This document shows, piece after piece, positions 2,783 to 12,200 of a DNA stretch of 64,000 nt. The stretch covers positions 3,363,001 to 3,427,000 of the forward strand of contig NZ_JAFIMU010000007.1 of NCBI RefSeq assembly GCF_017302985.1, in the 5' to 3' direction. The DNA comes from Corallococcus macrosporus (GTDB lineage Bacteria > Myxococcota > Myxococcia > Myxococcales > Myxococcaceae). The notes below the pieces were generated by a model. The model had not been told where the DNA came from. It worked only from the letters and a program-made list of their open reading frames with translations, and did not search any database. The position numbers and the translations under genes are program-made. Each line of letters opens with the position of its first letter. The first letter of the stretch is position 1.

Positions 2783-4189
2783 ATGCGTAGCGACAGCAAC
2801 ACGATGTGGATGGGCAAGAAGGCGCAGCGCGCGGGACTGCTGGGCACCCTGCTGGCGGTGATGCTGGGGAGCACGGGCTGCGGCGAGGAGTGCGTGGACG
2901 CCTTCGACTGTCGTGACGAGGGCACGGCGCCGACGGGCAAGGCCTGGGCCTGCGTCGAGGAGAAGTGCACCCAGGTCGCCATCACCAACCCCGATGGCGA
3001 CGACGCGGGGACGCAGACCGACGCAGGAACACAGACGGACGCCGGAACACAGACCGACGCTGGGACGCAGACCGACGCTGGGACGGAAACGGACGCGGGC
3101 ACGCAGACGGACGCGGGCACGGAGACCGACGCCGGAACGGATCCGGACGCAGGGCCGGACGTGGGCTCCGACCCGTGCGAGACCGCCACGTATGATCCGA
3201 AGCTGGGCACGCTCCAGCTCCAGACGGGCTACGTGGTTGGCGAGTCCGCGGCGCTGCAGGGCCCGGCCAACAGCTCGGGCTTCATCGTCGTCACGCCCGG
3301 CCCCACGTATGCGCTCTACGCGGTGATTGGTGGCTCGGTGCAGTCCAGCGAGGCGCCCATGGTGTATTCGCTGGGCACCTGGCCCCAGGTGGAGCTGGGA
3401 GCGACGCCGCTGTTCGACGTGCTCGCTCCCGAGGACCGGAACACGACCCCTGGGTGGATCGCCAGCGCCCTCGTGACGGATGGCCAGCACCTCCTCACCG
3501 GCTACATGCGGCCCAGCGGAGGCATTGCACCCGCGGCCGGGGCGGTGGGAGTCCACGACCTCGCCACGTCGGCCGCCTCCACGTATCTCCCCGCGCCCAA
3601 CATCCTCTACGCGGGCGCCGCGCCCGGCGTGTTCCTCACCGTCAGCGATGGCCTGGGCACCGTGTCCGAGGGGCGGAGCGTCTACGCGCTCAAGACCGAC
3701 GCGTCTCCGTTCACCGCCCTGAAGGTCGGCACGTTCCCGGCGAACATCCACGGCGGGGGTGCCATCAGCGTCTCCACCCATGGCGTCGCCATGCTCAGCT
3801 ACCTCTCCCAGGCGGACAATCGCTACCACGGCCACGCCGTGGCGCCGGCCGTGCTGACACAGGCGCTCACCACGGGGACGCCGTTCGCCGTGGCGGAGGC
3901 TCCCGAGGTGGACACCTTCCTGGGCCCCGTCTCCGCGATGGGCGAAGGCGTCGCGGTGCTGCGCGGCGGCGACACGCCGCCCGACTTCGGCTTCACGGAC
4001 ATCGCCCGCTACGCCTTCACGGTGACGGGTGCGGGCGCGACCGTCACGGTGGGTGCTCCCGAGCCCGTCCTCACCTTCCCGAACCAGTGCACCCTGGTTT
4101 CGATGATGGTCCCCATGGGCTCGGACCTGCTGGTCAAGGTGCAGGACAAGAACGGTGCGCGGCTCGTCCGCATCCACGACGGGCGATAA
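2783..4189 (+). CDS. Family A surface lipoprotein with DAGT linker (A2)
   Basis: Second family A paralogue, 468 residues. ATG 2783 lies after AGGAGCGAGGACGCG, the same leader that precedes A3. The N-terminus is a basic stretch (MGKKAQR), a hydrophobic core and a lipobox-like STGC. The Cys-rich patch GEECVDAFDCRDEGT follows, then a 9-unit DAG linker and the conserved C-terminal domain (ATYDPKLGTLQLQTGY, TPGPTYALYAV, YSLGTWPQVELGATPLFDV, GSDLLVKVQDKNGARLVRI). This copy has no family B partner downstream; the riboswitch for A3 lies just after it. The function is inferred only from A3's riboswitch: a candidate cell-surface corrinoid-binding lipoprotein. It could equally be a general adhesin-like surface protein. 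Confidence 0.85.
   Translation: MRSDSNTMWMGKKAQRAGLLGTLLAVMLGSTGCGEECVDAFDCRDEGTAPTGKAWACVEEKCTQVAITNPDGDDAGTQTDAGTQTDAGTQTDAGTQTDAGTETDAGTQTDAGTETDAGTDPDAGPDVGSDPCETATYDPKLGTLQLQTGYVVGESAALQGPANSSGFIVVTPGPTYALYAVIGGSVQSSEAPMVYSLGTWPQVELGATPLFDVLAPEDRNTTPGWIASALVTDGQHLLTGYMRPSGGIAPAAGAVGVHDLATSAASTYLPAPNILYAGAAPGVFLTVSDGLGTVSEGRSVYALKTDASPFTALKVGTFPANIHGGGAISVSTHGVAMLSYLSQADNRYHGHAVAPAVLTQALTTGTPFAVAEAPEVDTFLGPVSAMGEGVAVLRGGDTPPDFGFTDIARYAFTVTGAGATVTVGAPEPVLTFPNQCTLVSMMVPMGSDLLVKVQDKNGARLVRIHDGR
3002..3163 (+). repeat. 18-bp coding repeat (DAGTQT/DAGTET), 9 units
   Basis: Nine in-frame DAG hexapeptide units, mostly DAGTQT, linking the lipidated N-terminus of A2 to its folded domain. The units are more uniform than those of A1, which suggests recent expansion. 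Confidence 0.9.
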
Positions 4190-4244: not shown

Positions 4245-4271
4245 TTGACTTTGCCCCGGGGCCGCCATAGT
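4245..4271 (+). promoter_or_regulatory. Candidate sigma-70-type promoter for the riboswitch transcript
   Basis: TTGACT at 4245-4250 and CATAGT at 4266-4271, spacing 15. Transcription would start near 4278, right at the 5' edge of the cobalamin riboswitch. Four of six bases match in the -10 and five in the -35; the spacing is short, so this is a moderate call. Confidence 0.45.
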
Positions 4272-4279
4272 CCCGCCCC

Positions 4280-4416
4280 GTCATCGATGCCTTCCCGCCA
4301 TGGGGTAGGAGGGCTTCCAGGGAACCCGGTGTGAGTCCGGGACTGCCCCGCAGCGGTGAGCAGGAGCGGCGTTCGCACGAACCCCGCTCCCGCGAGTCCG
4401 AAGACCTGGCGACGAC
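4280..4416 (+). promoter_or_regulatory. Cobalamin (adenosylcobalamin-class) riboswitch
   Basis: The leader has the hallmark B12 riboswitch blocks in the right order: GGGAACCCGGTGTGAGTCCGG at about 4320-4340, the CTGCCCCGCAGCGGTGA box at about 4343-4359, and the downstream GAGTCCGAAGACCTGGC block at about 4394-4410. Together they form the conserved P3-P6 core and the P7-J6 region that binds the corrinoid. The 5' boundary is approximate. It lies on the strand of, and about 185 nt before, the family A gene at 4602. Established knowledge of this RNA class predicts repression of downstream genes when cobalamin is abundant. The A3-B2-Rieske genes are therefore likely B12-repressed. Confidence 0.9.
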
Positions 4417-4445
4417 CCGGCGCCCCTCCTCACGGAGGGGCCCGG
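4417..4445 (+). terminator. Hairpin immediately after riboswitch (possible expression platform)
   Basis: GCCCCTCC (4422-4429) pairs perfectly with GGAGGGGC (4434-4441) around a TCAC loop. The stem extends through CCGG/CCGG with one bulged C, giving about 12 GC-rich pairs. There is no U-tract, so it is not a canonical intrinsic terminator. It could act as a Rho-linked or anti-structure element between aptamer and gene. Confidence 0.4.
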
Positions 4446-4601
4446 CTACAGACCGGAACCTCCGAGGGGAGCTGACGGCGAAGGCAGGCCTCCAGCGCGC
4501 GACACGCGCCTGGCGGTCCGGTGCCTCGCGTCCGTGCCGCCCCCCGCCAGGAGAAGGCCTTGTCCGCCTGCGTGCGGAGAAGGGCCAGGAGCGAGGACGC
4601 G

Positions 4602-5954
4602 ATGCGGACCGACATGAAGCGGATGGGCACGAAGGGCCAGCGCGCGGCGCTGATGGGCGCCCTGCTGGCGGTGGTGCTGGGCGGTACGGGTTGCGGCGAG
4701 GAGTGCGTGGACGCCTTCGACTGCCGCGACAAGGGCTCGCCCCCGGAGGGCCGGGCCTGGGCCTGTGTCGAGGAGACGTGCACCCAGGTCGACGTCTCCA
4801 CGGGCGGCGACGACGCGGGCACGGACACCGACGCGGGCACCGGCACGGACGCGGGCACGAACACCGACGCGGGCACGAACACCGACGCGGGCACCGGCAC
4901 GGATGGCGGCACCGGTACGGATGGCGGCACCGGTACGGATGGCGGCACGGCCTCCTGCGGCCCGCTGCCTCGCGAGTCGGTGCTGGGCACGCTCCAGCTC
5001 CAGACGGGCTTCGTCGTCGCGGAGTCCGCGCCCCTGTCCACGGAGGTGGTCGCGGTGGTGTCCACGCCCGGCCCCACGTACTCGCTCTTCGGGCTGCGCC
5101 AGACGGCCACGGGCCGCGACGTCTTCTCGCTGGGCACCTGGCCGGACGTGCAACTGGCGGACGCGGCGCTCGACACGGTGCTCGCGCCCGCGGACCGTGC
5201 CAACGCGGCCGGCACCTTCCCGTCCTACTTCCTGGCCCATGACGGCACGCGCCTGCTCGCGGGCTACACGAAGAGCGGCTTCCCCGCTCCGGGCTCCGTC
5301 GCGGTGGTGGATCCGGCCGGGCGCGACGCGACGGACTACCTCGACGCGCCGGACAACTACACCGCCGTGGGCACCACGGACGCGTTCCTCATCAACGGCG
5401 GCGGCCTGGACACGGTGTCGGAAGGCTTCGGCGTCTACGCGCTGGTGACCTCCGCCAAGCCCTACGCCGCGGTGAAGGTGGTGGACTTCCCGGCGCAGGT
5501 GGGCGGCAGCGGCTTCTCCGCCATCGCGAGCAACAACATCACGGTGTTCGGCTACTCGCTGCCGGACACGTACGTGAACGTGGCCCATGCCGTGGCCTAC
5601 GCGAAGCTGGGCGAGGCGCTGGCCTCGCGCACACCGGTGGTGCTCACGAACGAGCCGAAGGTGGACGTGGGCTCGAACTTCAACGCCGCCGCGGGCTTCG
5701 GCAGCGGCGTGGCGATGGCGCGCGGCGCCTACAATGCCTCCTTCACCTTCGAGGTCTCCGACGTGTCGCGCTTCTCGCTCACCCCGGGCCTGGGCGGCAA
5801 CCAGCCCATCAGCGTGGGCACCCGCGAGCCGGTGGTCACCGCCACGGACGCGTGCACGAGCGTGAACCTGCTGTCGTCGCTGGGCTCGGACCTGCTCGTG
5901 GGCGTGACGGACGTCAACGGCCGCCGCCTCGTGCGCATCCAGCAGGCTCCGTGA
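4602..5954 (+). CDS. Family A surface lipoprotein with DAGT linker (A3), riboswitch-controlled
   Basis: Third family A paralogue, 450 residues. I chose ATG 4602 because AGGAGCGAGG lies just upstream and because MRTDMKRMGTKGQRAALMG then matches A2's N-terminus. It has a signal peptide with lipobox GTGC, the Cys-rich patch GEECVDAFDCRDKG, an 8-unit DAG/DGG linker, and the conserved domain (SVLGTLQLQTGFVVAESAPL, TPGPTYSLFG, FSLGTWPDVQLA, GSDLLVGVTDVNGRRLVRI). The cobalamin riboswitch ends about 185 nt upstream on the same strand. The stop codon overlaps the start of B2 (TGATG). The regulation is well supported by sequence. The proposed job, binding corrinoids at the outer membrane surface in the manner of BtuG-type beta-propeller lipoproteins of Bacteroides, is inference; no TonB receptor is visible in the window. 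Confidence 0.88.
   Translation: MRTDMKRMGTKGQRAALMGALLAVVLGGTGCGEECVDAFDCRDKGSPPEGRAWACVEETCTQVDVSTGGDDAGTDTDAGTGTDAGTNTDAGTNTDAGTGTDGGTGTDGGTGTDGGTASCGPLPRESVLGTLQLQTGFVVAESAPLSTEVVAVVSTPGPTYSLFGLRQTATGRDVFSLGTWPDVQLADAALDTVLAPADRANAAGTFPSYFLAHDGTRLLAGYTKSGFPAPGSVAVVDPAGRDATDYLDAPDNYTAVGTTDAFLINGGGLDTVSEGFGVYALVTSAKPYAAVKVVDFPAQVGGSGFSAIASNNITVFGYSLPDTYVNVAHAVAYAKLGEALASRTPVVLTNEPKVDVGSNFNAAAGFGSGVAMARGAYNASFTFEVSDVSRFSLTPGLGGNQPISVGTREPVVTATDACTSVNLLSSLGSDLLVGVTDVNGRRLVRIQQAP
4812..4955 (+). repeat. 18-bp coding repeat (DAGTxT then DGGTGT), 8 units
   Basis: Eight in-frame hexapeptide units. The last three have Ala changed to Gly (DGGTGT) with near-identical DNA (GGTACGGATGGCGGCACC), indicating recent local duplication. 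It is the linker of lipoprotein A3. Confidence 0.88.
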
Positions 5955-6742
5955 TGAAGCGCCCGTTGCTCGCGCTCGGCGCGCTGCTGACCCTGGGCGC
6001 GTGCTCGGGCGACCCGGACCCGGCGCCGCCGCCGGGCTCCGACATCGTGGACGCCGGCACCCGCGCGGATGCCGGTCCGTCCGATGCCGGCGTCACCGAT
6101 GCCGGGGCGGACGTGGACGCGGGGACGGACACGGATGCCGGTGCCGACGCGGGCTCGCGGCCGGTGGATCCGTTCGCGGACCGGGTGACGGCGTATCACT
6201 TCGGCGACGCGGCCGGCTTCGGGCAGGACCGCTTCCCGGGCGTCGTGCTCGGGGCTCCGGTGGGGGCGGGCCAGTACACGGGCTCGCTCGACGTGCTGTC
6301 GCTGGGGAAGGGCGGCTCCATCACCCTGGAGTTCACCGACCTGTTCGCGGTGGACGGCCCGGGCGTGGACCTGCTCGTGTTCGAGAACGCCTTCCAGAAG
6401 GTGGGCGGCGACATCTTCGCGGAGACGGCCAGCGTGTCCGTCAGCGACGACGGCCTCACCTGGTTCGACTTCCCCTGCGCCTCCACCGACAAGGACGGCG
6501 GCTTCCCGGGCTGTGCCGGGACGCATCCGGTGCACTCGGCGCCGGACAACGGCGTGTCCCCCACCGACCCGGCCGTGGCGGGCGGGGACGGCTTCGACCT
6601 GGCGGACGTGGGGCTCGCCCGCGCCCGCTTCGTGCGCCTCACCGACACGGGGCTCAACGGCTACGCGGGCACCAGCGGCGGCTTCGACCTGGATGCGCTG
6701 TCCGTGGTGAACGGGCAGCTGCCGGACGGTGGCGTGCCGTGA
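5954..6742 (+). CDS. Family B surface lipoprotein with DAG linker (B2)
   Basis: Paralogue of 1498-2172, 262 residues. ATG 5954 overlaps A3's stop as TGATG, implying translational coupling. The signal peptide MKRPLLALGALLTLGAC ends in a clear lipobox. Unlike B1 it carries an irregular DAG-rich linker (about residues 30-67), as if acquired from family A. The domain then matches B1 block for block: GAPVGAGQYTGSLDVLSLG, SITLEFTDLFAVDGPGVDLLVFENAF, VSDDGLTWFDFPC, FPGCAGTHPV, GGDGFDLADVGLARARFVRL and SGGFDLDALSVVNG. It is in the riboswitch-controlled operon, so expression should fall when B12 is plentiful. The molecular function is unknown; an outer-surface partner of the family A protein is the simplest reading. 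Confidence 0.85.
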   Translation: MKRPLLALGALLTLGACSGDPDPAPPPGSDIVDAGTRADAGPSDAGVTDAGADVDAGTDTDAGADAGSRPVDPFADRVTAYHFGDAAGFGQDRFPGVVLGAPVGAGQYTGSLDVLSLGKGGSITLEFTDLFAVDGPGVDLLVFENAFQKVGGDIFAETASVSVSDDGLTWFDFPCASTDKDGGFPGCAGTHPVHSAPDNGVSPTDPAVAGGDGFDLADVGLARARFVRLTDTGLNGYAGTSGGFDLDALSVVNGQLPDGGVP

Positions 6743-7281
6743 GCCCGCGTGCGCTCCACCCGCCTTCCGAAGACGCGGGGGTGGGTGGAGTGGATCGCCG
6801 TCAGGCGCTGTGCACGCTGCTGCGCGGCACCTGCGCCCTGGCCGCGCTGGGCTGCGGCGGTGACTGGCGCGAGGCCGTGGTGCTCCCCGCGCCGGAAGGG
6901 GACGAAGACCCCGTGCCCGCCACCTGCGGCGACACCGGGGTCCCCGGCACGGCCCAGGAGGGGTGGGTGGAGGTCCCGCTCCAGCAGCATCCCGCCCTGC
7001 GCGAGCCGGGAGGCCAGTCCACCGTCCGCGTCCCGGACGCGCTCCTGGACGTGGTGGTGGTGCACACGGCGGACGGCTGCTACCGGGCCGTGTGGCGCAC
7101 CTGCACCCATGGCGACTGCGCGGTGGCCTGGGACGGAGCGCTGGGGCTGGTGGAGTGCCCCTGCCATGGCTCGCGCTTCGGCCTGGACGGCCGCGTGGTC
7201 CGGGGCCCCGCGTCCCGGCCGCTGACGGCCTTCCGCACCCTGCGCGTGGGTGACTCCCTCTTCATCCACCGCCCCAGGTGA
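6739..7281 (+). CDS. Rieske [2Fe-2S] lipoprotein, Tat-like signal
   Basis: Predicted 180-residue exported Rieske protein. GTG 6739 overlaps the TGA of B2 (GTGA); an in-frame GTG at 6790 would give a shorter form starting just before the twin-arginine segment. VDRRQALCTLLRG followed by LAALGCGG looks like a Tat-type signal joined to a lipobox, which fits export of a folded iron-sulfur protein. The cluster ligands are visible: Cys122-Thr-His124 (CTHGDC) and Cys140-Pro-Cys-His143 (CPCHGSRF), with the flanking FGLDG loop. It is the last gene of the B12-riboswitch transcript. A role in electron transfer at the cell envelope, perhaps to a bound corrinoid or an oxygenase, is speculation. Confidence 0.85.
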   Translation: MSPRALHPPSEDAGVGGVDRRQALCTLLRGTCALAALGCGGDWREAVVLPAPEGDEDPVPATCGDTGVPGTAQEGWVEVPLQQHPALREPGGQSTVRVPDALLDVVVVHTADGCYRAVWRTCTHGDCAVAWDGALGLVECPCHGSRFGLDGRVVRGPASRPLTAFRTLRVGDSLFIHRPR

Positions 7282-7427: not shown

Positions 7428-9131
7428 GTGGGCCCGATGTGGCAGATCATCATCAACGGGCCCGGCTACTTCGACACGTCGTACGACCTGCCCGAGGGCG
7501 TCACCAGCCTCGGCCGTGCCGACGAGAACGACATCGTGCTGGGCGGTGACCTCGTGTCGCGCCGGCACGCGCGCCTCTACGTCGAAGGCGATGTGCTGCG
7601 CATCGAGGACCTGGGCAGCCGCAACGGCAGCCGGGTGAACGGCGCGCCCCTGCAGGGCAGCAAGCACCTGAACGCGGGCGACACCGTGGCGCTGGGGGAG
7701 AACACCCTGGCGGTGCGCCAGCCGCACACGGTGGAGAACGCCGCCACGGAGATGATGGACCTGGGCGCGGGCGGCGTCGTGCGCTTCGGGCACGGCACGG
7801 ACGTGGGCCCGGCCGTGCTGATGGCCAAGAACGTCAAGGACGCGGACGTGCTGCGCCTGCTGGACAACGTGGGGCCGCTGCCGTTCGACGACGCGTTCTC
7901 CGGCCCCTCGCCCGTGCCCGCGGGCTCCGCCGTCGCCAGCCCGCGCGTGTCGTATGAGACGCTGGTGCTGCTGGTGCACGCCGCGGAGGCGCTGGCCACC
8001 GCGCGCACGCTGACCGCGTTCCTGGAGTCCGCGATGGACCGGCTCCTGGAGCGCACCGACGCCACGACGGCGGTGGTGCTGCTCAAGCACGCCGCCGGGC
8101 CGCTGGTGCCCGCGGCGGTGCGCCACCGGGGACGGCTGGCCAAGGGCGAGGTGCCCGTGTCCGACGCCATCGTGGACGAGGCCCTGCGCCAGGGCCGCGC
8201 GCTCGCGGTGGGCGACGTGAAGGACGACCGCCGCTTCGCCGGACGCGAGAGCGTCATCATGTACGGCGTCAACCGGGTGCTGTGCATCCCCATCGGCACC
8301 GAGCCGCCCTTCGCGGGCGTGCTCTACGTCAACGTGCCCGCCGAGGGCGACACCAGCCTGGAGCTGATGCTGGACGCGTGCACCGCGGTGGCCCACCTGG
8401 TGGCCAGCGGCGTGCAGCGCTTCGCCGTGCGCGACGGCTCCAGCACGGACCGGCTGCGCCGCAACCTGGAGCGCTTCCACTCGCCGGAGGTGGCCGAGCG
8501 CCGCTCCGCCGAGGCCCAGCGCACGGGCGGCAAGCTGCCGGGCCTGGAGGAGAAGAACCTCACCGTGCTGCACGCGGAGCTGGCGGACTTCGGCGCCGTC
8601 ATTGGCCGGCTGGGCGCGGCGCGCGCCACGCAGCTGCTCAACGACTTCCACGCGCGCATGAGCGGCATCGTCTTCAGCTTCGAGGCCACCGTCGAAGGCT
8701 TCATGGGCGAGTCCATGCGCGCGCTGTTCGGCGTGCCCTACGCCAAGGGCGACGACGCGGTCCGCGCGGTGCGCGCGGCGCTGGCCCTGCGCGCGGACTG
8801 GGAGCGGGGCATGGCCCGCCGGCCCCAGGACGAGCGCTGCGACCTGAGAATCGCGCTGCACTCCACCAAGGCGCTGGTGGGGATGATCGGCACCGAGTCG
8901 CGCACGGAGTACAGCGCCGTGGGAGAGGGCATGGGGGTGGCAGGCTGGCTGGCCTCCACCGCGGCCCCCGGCCAGGTGCTGATGACGGGCAAGCTGCTGG
9001 CGGCCACCGGGGCGCGCTTCGACGTGATGCCGCTGGGGGAGCGCGTGGTGCGGCCTCCGCGCGACAAGGTGGCGGTTTTCGAGGTGATTGAAGAGGACAT
9101 GGGCATGCTGACCAACCCCGGTATCCGGTGA
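7428..9131 (+). CDS. FHA-GAF-adenylate/guanylate cyclase-like protein, catalytic residues lost
   Basis: Cytoplasmic 567-residue signalling protein. The start is GTG 7428 behind GGAGG; ATG 7437 is the alternative. Residues 1-100 are an FHA domain with the phosphothreonine-binding GR (29-30), SRRH (44-47) and NG loop (65-71). About 175-325 resembles a GAF domain. About 374-545 has the fold pattern of a class III nucleotide cyclase (LTVLHAELADFG, VEGFMGESMRALFG, GTESRTEYSAVGEGMGVAGWL). The catalytic positions deviate: both metal-binding Asp are Glu (384, 428), the substrate-selecting Lys is Gly (424), and the transition-state Asn and Arg are Gly and Trp. It is therefore probably a pseudo-cyclase acting as a sensor or scaffold. 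The downstream Ser/Thr kinase is an obvious source of phosphothreonine ligands for the FHA domain. Confidence 0.85.
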   Translation: MGPMWQIIINGPGYFDTSYDLPEGVTSLGRADENDIVLGGDLVSRRHARLYVEGDVLRIEDLGSRNGSRVNGAPLQGSKHLNAGDTVALGENTLAVRQPHTVENAATEMMDLGAGGVVRFGHGTDVGPAVLMAKNVKDADVLRLLDNVGPLPFDDAFSGPSPVPAGSAVASPRVSYETLVLLVHAAEALATARTLTAFLESAMDRLLERTDATTAVVLLKHAAGPLVPAAVRHRGRLAKGEVPVSDAIVDEALRQGRALAVGDVKDDRRFAGRESVIMYGVNRVLCIPIGTEPPFAGVLYVNVPAEGDTSLELMLDACTAVAHLVASGVQRFAVRDGSSTDRLRRNLERFHSPEVAERRSAEAQRTGGKLPGLEEKNLTVLHAELADFGAVIGRLGAARATQLLNDFHARMSGIVFSFEATVEGFMGESMRALFGVPYAKGDDAVRAVRAALALRADWERGMARRPQDERCDLRIALHSTKALVGMIGTESRTEYSAVGEGMGVAGWLASTAAPGQVLMTGKLLAATGARFDVMPLGERVVRPPRDKVAVFEVIEEDMGMLTNPGIR

Positions 9132-9157
9132 GGCGGTCGGCGCGGCCGGTTGACGGG

Positions 9158-9187
9158 TTGAAGCGGGGGGCCTGCCCGGGGTTCAAT
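9158..9187 (+). promoter_or_regulatory. Candidate promoter for the Ser/Thr kinase gene
   Basis: TTGAAG (9158-9163) and TTCAAT (9182-9187) with 18-bp spacing, four of six matches each to the sigma-70 consensus. It would start transcription about 20 nt before the ATG at 9217. Confidence 0.3.
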
Positions 9188-9216
9188 GCGGTTTCCGTGG
9201 TGGACCCCCGCACCGC

Positions 9217-12200
9217 ATGAACTCTTCGACCCAGCCCGCCCGATTGCGTCCCTTCCGGCCGCAGCCCTTCGGCCGGTACACGCTCCTGTCGCACCTGGCC
9301 ACCGGCGGCATGGGGGAGATCTACCTCGCCCGTCTGGAGGGCGCGCAGGGCTTCGAGAAGCTGTGCGTCATCAAGAAGATCCTCCCGCAGTTCGCGGAGG
9401 ACCAGGACTTCGTCGACCGCTTCGTGGGTGAGGCGCGCACGCTGGTGCGGCTGGGGCACGGCTCCATCGCGCAGGTGCTGGACATGGGCGTGCACGAGGG
9501 CGAGGCCTACATGGCCCTCGAGTACGTGGACGGCAAGGACCTGCGCAAGGTGGCCGCGCGCGTGCGCGACCGGCAGACGCCGCTGCCGCTCACGTTCGTG
9601 CTCTACGTGATGGGCCGCGTGCTGGACGCGCTCGCGTACGCGCACCGCAAGCGGGACGAGGACGAGAAGGAGCTGAAGCTCGTCCACCGGGACATCTCGC
9701 CGCAGAACATCCTCATCTCCTACGAGGGGGAGGTGAAGGTCATCGACTTCGGCCTGGCGAAGAGCCGGCTGTCGGCGGCCAAGACGAACCCCAGCATCAT
9801 CCTGGGCAAGTTCCTCTACATGTCGCCCGAGCAGGCCCGGCACCAGCCGGTGGACCGCCGCAGCGACCTGTACGCGGTGGGCCTGTGCCTCTACGAGCTC
9901 ATCTCCGGCAAGAACCCCTTCGACGCGATGCCGCCGGGCGAGCTGATGTCCGCCGTCGCGAACCCGAAGGTGGCGCCGCTCAGTGAAGTGGAGCCGCTGA
10001 CGCCGCCGGCGGTGTCGCAGCTGGTGGCGAAGGCGCTGGCGGTGGAGCCGGCCCAGCGCTTCCAGACGGCGGAGGACTTCCGGGTGCGCCTGCAGGCGTG
10101 CCTCATGGAGATCGACACCAGCGCGGGCCCGGAGAGCGTCAGCCGCTTCATGCGCGACCTGTTCTCCTCGGACTACCAGTCCGAGCGCCGCCTGCTGGCG
10201 TCCCTGCGCGAGGTGTCGCGCGACGTGCGCGCCAGCGGCACGTACGAGTCGCTGGGCCCCGCGCCGCGCCCGACGATGCCGGCGCCCACGCTGCCGGCGA
10301 AGACCATCCGCCTGGACGGGCCGGTGGAGCCGCTGTCGTTCCACCCCACGCCGCGCAGCCGCGAGGACGGCGGTGGCGCGCGCGACGACGGTGAGACGCG
10401 CCCTGGCGTGATGGTGGACGAGTCCACCCGCCCCGCGTTCCCGGTGGAGGCGCTGGAGGAGGCGGCCCGCGCGAAGATGCGGCCCAGCCCCGCGTCCTCG
10501 GAGCCGTCGCCCACGGTGGAGGTCCGCCAGGACGCGATGGAGCGGCCCACCATCCTCGAGGGCCTGCCCGCCATCCGGCTCCCCTCGGACCGCGCGGTGG
10601 AGGCGGAGGCTCCGGTGGCCCCGCCGCTCGGCGAGCCCACCGCGCCCCGGACGGAAGCGCTGCCCGTGGCGGAGGCGAGAGGGGAGCCCACCGCGCCGCG
10701 CGCCACGTCGCTGCCGTACGCGGATGCAGGGCTGCCGTCGCGTGACGCGCCTCCCGTGGAGGACGTGCCCGCGCCGACGCCGTTCGCGGACGCGGGACGG
10801 GGGGCTTCGCTGCCCTTCTCGGATTCGGTGGGGCCTCGTGGCGTGCCGCCGCCCGCGCCGATGGCGGCGATCCCCGCCGTGCGGCCGGCGGATGGACCCG
10901 TGCCCTTCGTGCCGGCGGATGCGTCGCGGCCGGTGTCGCCTCCGCCGATGCCGTCGTCGTTCGACGCCGGGGCGGAGCGGTTCGATACGTCCGGCGAGTC
11001 GCTGCCGTTCATGGAGCCGCCGCCTCCGCCGGACGGCCCGTTCCTCGATGACGAGGAGGAGCTTCCCGAGAGCGACTACCCGTGGCCGGCGCCCATCGTC
11101 GAGGGCGTCCAGATCGAGTCTCGCGCCGCCGAGCCGCGCATTCCGGAGGGGCAGCGCCCCACCGCCGCGATGCCGTCCCTGTCGTCGTCGCGCCCCGGGG
11201 TGACGACGCCGTCGAATGGCAGCCGTCCCGTGTCGCCGCCCCCGTTCGACGCGGCCCGCACCCCGGAGCCCCTGCCGACCTTCGAGCCGGTGCGCGCGCC
11301 GGAGTCCTCGCGCGGCTTCGACCCGCCGCGCAGCCCCGAGTCGTCCCGAGGCTTCGATGCGCCCCGCGCCGAGCCGCGCATTCCGGAAGGCCAGCGCCCC
11401 ACGGCCGCGATGCCATCGCTGCCGTCCTCGCGCCCTGGCGTGACGACACCGTCGAATGGCAACCGGCCGGTGCCGGCGTACGCCGCGCCCACCATCCAGG
11501 TGCCCTCCATCCAGCCCGGCGCCTCGCGCTCCATCGACTACGACGAGGCGCCGCTGGGCTCCGAGCCGCTCGATTCGGGGCCGGCGCCCCGGCCCACGAT
11601 GCAGGACACGCGGCCGTCGGAGGAGCTGATCTCGGTGGATCCGCGCGCGCTGGAGGTGGACTCCAGCGTGCCGTACATCTCCGCGGATCCGGACGACGCC
11701 CTGGCCGCGCGCGAGGGCGACGCGGACACGCACCCGCGCATCCAGATGCCTCGCCCCCCGCGCCGCGAGGAGCCCCAGGCCCGCGTGGTGCTGGACGAGG
11801 CCGCGCTGCGCGAGCCCTCCACCTCCTCCGGCAAGCGCGATCCCGACACCGGCCCCACGGGGCCTGCCCGGGGCCGCACGGGGTCTCGCCGCGCCGTGCG
11901 CGGTTCGTCTCCCAGCACGCCGCCTCCGCGCTCCAGCACCGCGTCGAGCATGCGCGCCGTGGCTCCACCCCGCGCCGCCGCGCCCTCCGTGGACCCGGAC
12001 GAGTCCTCCACCTCGCGCTCGACGCGTGACGACTCGACCCGGCGCAAGGCGATGCCCGTACGGCCGGAGCCCTCGGAGCCGGCCCCTGCCTCGCGGCGTG
12101 AGCCGGCGCCGGCCCGCAAGGGTGGCGCGCTGCGCTCCGTGCTGATGTTCACGCTGCTGATGCTCGTGGCGCTGTCCATCGTGGGCGCGGGGCTCTTCTT

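Follow-up and report, generated by a model that had tools for sequence, protein, structure and literature searches.

A riboswitch-led operon encoding a BtuH-like lipoprotein in Corallococcus macrosporus, a likely corrinoid-capture unit

A stretch of 64,000 nucleotides from Corallococcus macrosporus (contig NZ_JAFIMU010000007.1, positions 3,363,001 to 3,427,000 of the forward strand), referred to here as the window, harbors near its left end a cobalamin riboswitch followed by genes for two lipoproteins, A3 and B2, and a Rieske lipoprotein, R. The families of A3 and B2 are denoted A and B. B2 was found to be related to the B12-binding domain of BtuH, and the A3-B2-R operon is likely to be a cobalamin-repressed corrinoid-capture unit of the Bacteroides BtuG/BtuH kind, accessory to an outer-membrane corrinoid uptake locus. 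The features of the unit, in window coordinates, are as follows.

4245–4271, + strand: promoter-like sequence TTGACT-15-CATAGT, from sequence reading and leader alignment
4268–4427, + strand: cobalamin riboswitch aptamer (RF00174), RS3 of the locus
4428–4601, + strand: leader from the aptamer to A3, with GC-rich hairpins and the conserved block ACAGACCGGAACCTCCGNGGGGAGCTGACGGCG, kept in 8 leaders (fold z -2.36)
4602–5954, + strand: A3, open reading frame (ORF) of 450 amino acids with ATG start; lipoprotein with an Asp/Gly/Thr-rich stalk, then a predicted beta-propeller (mature domain 4938–5951)
5954–6742, + strand: B2, 262 amino acids; lipoprotein with a BtuH-like jelly-roll domain (mature domain ~6149–6739)
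6739–7281, + strand: R, 180 amino acids with GTG start; Rieske [2Fe-2S] lipoprotein with a Tat-like RR signal (Pfam Rieske domain, E 1.4e-11)

The aptamer matched Rfam RF00174 over the full model (1–189) with 61.7 bits (E 7.6e-13; gathering score, 31.5 bits) and was the sole Rfam match above gathering in the whole window. The promoter-like pair TTGACT/CATAGT begins at 4245, where an earlier sequence-only reading of this DNA had set the start of the unit, and was conserved as TTGAC[T/A] and CATAGT in all eight aligned orthologous leaders, which showed a mean column identity of 85% from TTGACT to the A3 start. A promoter scan requiring a spacing of 16–18 nucleotides found no consensus promoter in the leader, the 15-nucleotide pair falling outside this rule. 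The segment at 4428–4601 is a possible expression platform; the terminator scan of the leader found no intrinsic terminator, and the L5-L13 kissing-loop pairing in the eight leaders averaged 4.1 pairs for cognate loops versus 3.7 for mismatched pairs. Downstream of RS3, A3, B2 and the Rieske gene overlap in series, the overlaps being TGATG and GTGA as read in the sequence. Lipobox-like N-terminal ends before a cysteine were visible by eye in all three products, and B2 scored 19.6 bits against Pfam LPAM_1, just below the cut-off of 20. The sequence-only reading had claimed a cobalamin aptamer at 4280–4416 followed by overlapping genes for two lipoproteins and a Rieske lipoprotein, and on both points it is borne out.

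The AlphaFold2 model of B2, built from 32 sequences, was confident, with a predicted local distance difference test (pLDDT) score of 94.6. Its top structural match was 7biz, the B12-binding domain of BtuH2 (Z 13.5, 155 amino acids aligned, root-mean-square deviation (rmsd) 3.1 Å, 17% identity), and the H-domain of BtuG1, 8blw_B, matched comparably (Z 12.9, 158 amino acids aligned, rmsd 2.9 Å, 20% identity); the row after both BtuH domains stood at Z 9.8. The predicted fold of B2 is thus that of the C-terminal domain of BtuH2, and Foldseek with the B2 model returned 8blw_B as the sole match at E≤0.001. Sequence homology of B to the BtuH domain was likewise found, both with a broad profile and with hhalign. 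A 40-row B profile, planctomycete members included, searched against 177,635 distinct PDB sequences, gave 8blw_B as the sole match at E≤10 (E 3.7e-7). The hhalign comparison with four BtuH domains, which came from plasmid records of Bacteroidota, gave E 2.4e-13 (8.4e-8 with a narrower B profile), and the control pairs A-BtuH and B-BtuG were null. When A3 and B2 were each searched as single sequences against PDB, all matches were weak and unrelated. Pfam was blank on B2 except for a lipid-attachment hint, and the two true BtuH domains scanned were likewise blank. B2 and the B12-binding domain of BtuH are distantly homologous, not just analogous.

The B12 contacts of BtuH2 are reported to include Gln333, Asn399 and Phe401, of which the Asn contacts the B12 phosphate; Asn399 and Phe401 make contact with a complete cobamide at its lower ligand and nucleotide loop (PMC8941943). 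The numbering was verified, as a single offset places all three residues on the right letters. The profile alignments pair Asn399 with N80 and Phe401 with F82 of the B2 model, and these two residues are kept in 40/40 and 35/40 B sequences, respectively. From these alignments, B appears to belong to the BtuH kind as a remote and shorter member, or else to be its sister, with the nucleotide-loop side conserved, and by homology B2 would be expected to bind B12. Membership of B in DUF4465/BtuJ was rejected by sequence, as none of the 40 members matched the DUF4465 profile at E≤1 and a Bacteroides DUF4465 protein, the positive control, gave E 8.5e-38. The NCBIfam model NF033170 (LIC_13355 family lipoprotein of Leptospira) was matched at E≤0.1 by 35 of the 40 B members (best E 8.4e-18), B2 itself reaching 28.8 bits where the cut-off is 120, and a Persicobacter BtuH-like domain also touched it (E 0.012). 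These matches relate the Leptospira LIC_13355 family to the BtuH-like B sequences.

The operon lies within a larger locus, of which the window holds the right-hand part. An RF00174 search of the 9.8-Mb genome found three sites, all within one 9-kb locus, the two further ones lying just left of the window at contig positions 3358698 (69.3 bits) and 3362601 (98.9 bits, RS2). The first riboswitch leads a TonB-dependent receptor gene, T (8986–10980 of the fetched locus L004), overlapped by the gene for lipoprotein G; RS2 leads A1-B1, then A2; and A3-B2-R is the third riboswitch-led unit. The remaining features of the locus are listed below.

L004 8698–8936 and 12601–12824: left-hand riboswitches (RF00174)
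1–1489, + strand: A1, ORF in the unit led by RS2, an A3 paralogue (54% identity) that begins left of the window (L004:12981)
1486–2172, + strand: B1, a B2 paralogue (61% identity) that overlaps A1
2783–4189, + strand: A2, a further A3 paralogue (50% identity) without a riboswitch of its own

The locus continues to the left of the first riboswitch with two additional A paralogues. The best NCBIfam match of T was TIGR01779 (TonB-B12 receptor) at 118 bits, far under the curated cut-off of 599.7, and T does not qualify as BtuB by this score. Lipoprotein G consists of Cys-rich STIG1-like stretches plus a C-terminal domain. Four matches to FecCD-type permeases were found in the genome, none of them within the locus. 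Between B1 and A2, at 2318–2653, a small ORF with a hydrophobic N-terminus shows a weak, sub-threshold DUF4177 match (E 0.0056). Elsewhere in the genome (L032:8790–9794, - strand), an A paralogue sharing 69% identity with A3 stands alone, with neither B nor an RF00174 riboswitch.

The mature domain of A3 was confidently predicted as a beta-propeller (AlphaFold2 pLDDT 94.1), and its model matched known propellers at Z 16–19, a generic match. BtuG2 is a seven-bladed propeller (PMC10404256), and BtuG1 of B. theta carries a BtuH domain in the same chain (PMC10404256, PMC12751083). BtuG chains were absent from the best 50 structural matches of A3, a list filled by generic propellers and hence uninformative either way. 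Searches of PDB sequences with profiles of A and of G yielded nothing meaningful. As judged from the model, A3 would share with BtuG only the beta-propeller fold class, and it may act like BtuG.

The distribution of B was examined in the order and beyond. B2 is 86% identical to a protein of Corallococcus sp. AS-1-6, and B was present in 76 of 145 genomes of the order, with strong matches in 73. In at least 59 of these 73 genomes, RF00174 lay within 6 kb upstream of B on the same strand, and at least 59 of the 74 B genes concerned sit 1.4–1.9 kb downstream of the riboswitch, which leaves room for gene A. By our own arithmetic, given about three sites per 10 Mb, chance would place a riboswitch near B in approximately 1 in 1000 cases. 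Among 40 named loci with B, a riboswitch was found upstream of B by coordinates in 35, gene A in 25, T and G nearby in 17 and a Rieske gene in 15. A direct scan of nine distant loci showed a cobalamin-class riboswitch upstream of B in seven (six RF00174 and one RF01482). B was also found in 27 of 199 sampled genomes of the phylum to which the Phycisphaerales record L071 belongs (the genome of L071 included), and RF00174 lay upstream of B on the same strand in 12 of the 20 short planctomycete loci scanned (30 fetched). The BtuH-type domain is thus encoded together with a B12 riboswitch and a receptor; in L070, B, G and T stand in a row, T being split over two frames. The record of Myxococcus xanthus strain AM003 (L049) has T, G, A, B and R together within a single stretch. 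Neither the viral contig scan nor the plasmid search with B2 found a relative.

Some of these loci deviate in content. In L060 (9102–9935) and L062 (8490–9794), a different lipoprotein-like ORF, without a Pfam match, takes the place of A between riboswitch and B and is a candidate further B12 accessory family. The planctomycete loci L126 and L128 have single ORFs of 536 and 480 amino acids with two tandem B-like domains. L042 (BNCN01000012.1), titled Comamonas sp., bears a Myxococcus-like T-G-A-B-R locus, and its label is probably wrong.

The cluster-ligand motifs CTHGxC and ECPCHGS, with the C-x-H ... C-x-x-H ligand arrangement, were found in 13/13 aligned R sequences, a pattern that we take to denote high-potential Rieske clusters. 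The Rieske gene was present in 15 of 25 A-B loci and was not found within the fetched stretches of the other 10, of which that of L050 ends shortly after B. R, conserved but not always present, would be a redox partner. It is improbable, in our estimate, that R acts with the B12-capturing pair at the surface by altering the cobalt redox state or the axial ligand, such that a tight binder releases the corrinoid to the receptor; no description of a redox-assisted step in B12 uptake was found in the open-licence PMC literature searched. The frequent Rieske linkage raises a new question on redox chemistry in corrinoid uptake.

With respect to corrinoid synthesis, CobJ, a step of corrin-ring synthesis, went unmatched in this genome and in those of 15 congeners; the organism, apparently a soil-dwelling myxobacterium, therefore probably depends on imported corrinoid, on the basis of this one enzyme family. 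In the order, CobJ reached the cut-off in 11 of 145 genomes. A use of B as a marker of B12 non-producers was unsupported, CobJ being above the cut-off in 8/73 B-bearing versus 3/72 other genomes.

Taken as corrinoid capture, the operon could work as follows. When B12 is scarce, a riboswitch of this class would permit expression of A3-B2-R. A3 and B2, whose export and lipidation motifs are visible, would be lipidated at the surface and tethered by a flexible stalk. The BtuH-like jelly-roll of B2 would catch the corrinoid, with the nucleotide-loop phosphate probably gripped by the invariant Asn. As in the BtuH and BtuBG systems of Bacteroides, the corrinoid could then be handed over either to A3, the propeller lipoprotein, or to G, the lipoprotein linked to the receptor, and could move on to T, the TonB-dependent receptor encoded in the first unit.

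Several results weigh against this interpretation. With regard to the riboswitch, 14 of the 73 B genomes showed no RF00174 site among the matches listed; for four of these (G162, G164, G165 and G168), a separate listing shows a site at the matching contig number and position, apparently in the same genome. Five of the 40 named loci (L055, L057, L059, L065 and L069) showed no riboswitch upstream of B by coordinate comparison; by direct scan, L061 and L066 had none at the gathering score, and in 8 of the 20 short planctomycete loci scanned none was found upstream of B. Eight of the 73 B-bearing genomes hold CobJ above the cut-off. The BtuH sequence match spans only residues 8–112 of B, and a narrower, 32-row B profile missed both BtuH entries in PDB at E≤10, its seven PDB matches being unrelated (best 7awz, E 1.3e-4). 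Gln333 of BtuH2 aligns with a small residue in B, and the corrin-ring contacts His476, Tyr510, Trp511 and Trp577 fall, by eye, where B lacks or varies sequence, with no recognisable counterparts. Against four BtuG/DUF5074-type propellers, the A and G profiles reached hhalign probabilities of only 0.2% and 0.6%, respectively, and homology to BtuG was found for neither A nor G.

It is unlikely that A3 and B2 are instead B12-regulated surface lectins or adhesins, a CBM32/discoidin-like jelly-roll with a propeller whose ligands would be glycans or partners and not corrinoid. CBM32 and similar domains do appear in the B2 structural list at Z 8–9; both BtuH domains lead the remaining matches by 3 Z units. 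Two B members weakly touch Pfam F5_F8_type_C (best E 0.13), whereas BtuG1 is the sole PDB sequence match of the broad B profile. The A3 propeller is a generic one, and the related Leptospira LIC_13355 has been reported as a binder of laminin and plasminogen (PMC11891782), but the loci associate with cobalamin riboswitches in two phyla. Little credence is likewise given to the proposal that the unit handles another cobalt species or a corrinoid precursor, such as cobinamide or a cobalt chelate, B12 being only the end-product signal. It would fit the lack of recognisable ring contacts in B and the finding that the sequences of A and G do not mark them as BtuG; the kept equivalents of Asn399 and Phe401, however, are those in contact with the lower ligand and nucleotide loop in complete cobamides (PMC8941943).

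Surface capture of corrinoid under B12 control, as the sequence-only reading had suggested, is still the best interpretation, supported by the riboswitch and by homologues beside B12 elements, the riboswitch association recurring in two phyla; that suggestion is amended in that the locus has three riboswitches, each leading a unit of which the operon is one, and that a TonB-dependent receptor is encoded close by. The same reading had viewed the system as analogous to the BtuG/BtuH lipoproteins but of different sequence, which fails for B2. BtuG and BtuH have been described in gut Bacteroidetes. If Myxococcota and Planctomycetota have a BtuH-like family linked to riboswitches, the capture strategy would be older or more mobile than thought, and this mode of B12 scavenging is probably more widespread than thought. 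The BtuH link also provides a testable function for the B family, otherwise without one in the libraries searched, and for the Leptospira LIC_13355 family.

Among known systems, the Leptospira family NF033170 resembles B through the matches of most B members; it differs in that B2 falls far below its cut-off, and the abstract of PMC11891782 names no corrinoid or B12 role for LIC_13355. BtuJ/DUF4465 (PF14717) proteins are jelly-roll B12 binders of riboswitch loci, reported also in Myxococcota (PMC13398666). B shares with them the jelly-roll and the riboswitch loci but not the DUF4465 signature, absent from all 40 members. BtuH2 of Bacteroides thetaiotaomicron (7BIZ) is likewise a lipoprotein of a B12-riboswitch locus with the same jelly-roll domain, and its Asn-x-Phe motif is kept in B. 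However, the B domain has ~190 residues, whereas BtuH2 has PKD domains plus ~280; the sequence similarity is only distant, and the ring-contacting aromatic and His residues of BtuH2 are not recognisable in B. BtuGH (BtuG1) of Bacteroides (8BLW) combines a beta-propeller with a BtuH-type domain and is likewise encoded in a riboswitch locus with a TonB-dependent receptor. Here, in contrast, the A propeller is without BtuG sequence homology, and the propeller (A) and H-like domain (B) are encoded by separate overlapping genes, twice in the locus, such that, by analogy, the adjacent A-B pair resembles the BtuGH fusion of Bacteroides divided over two genes.

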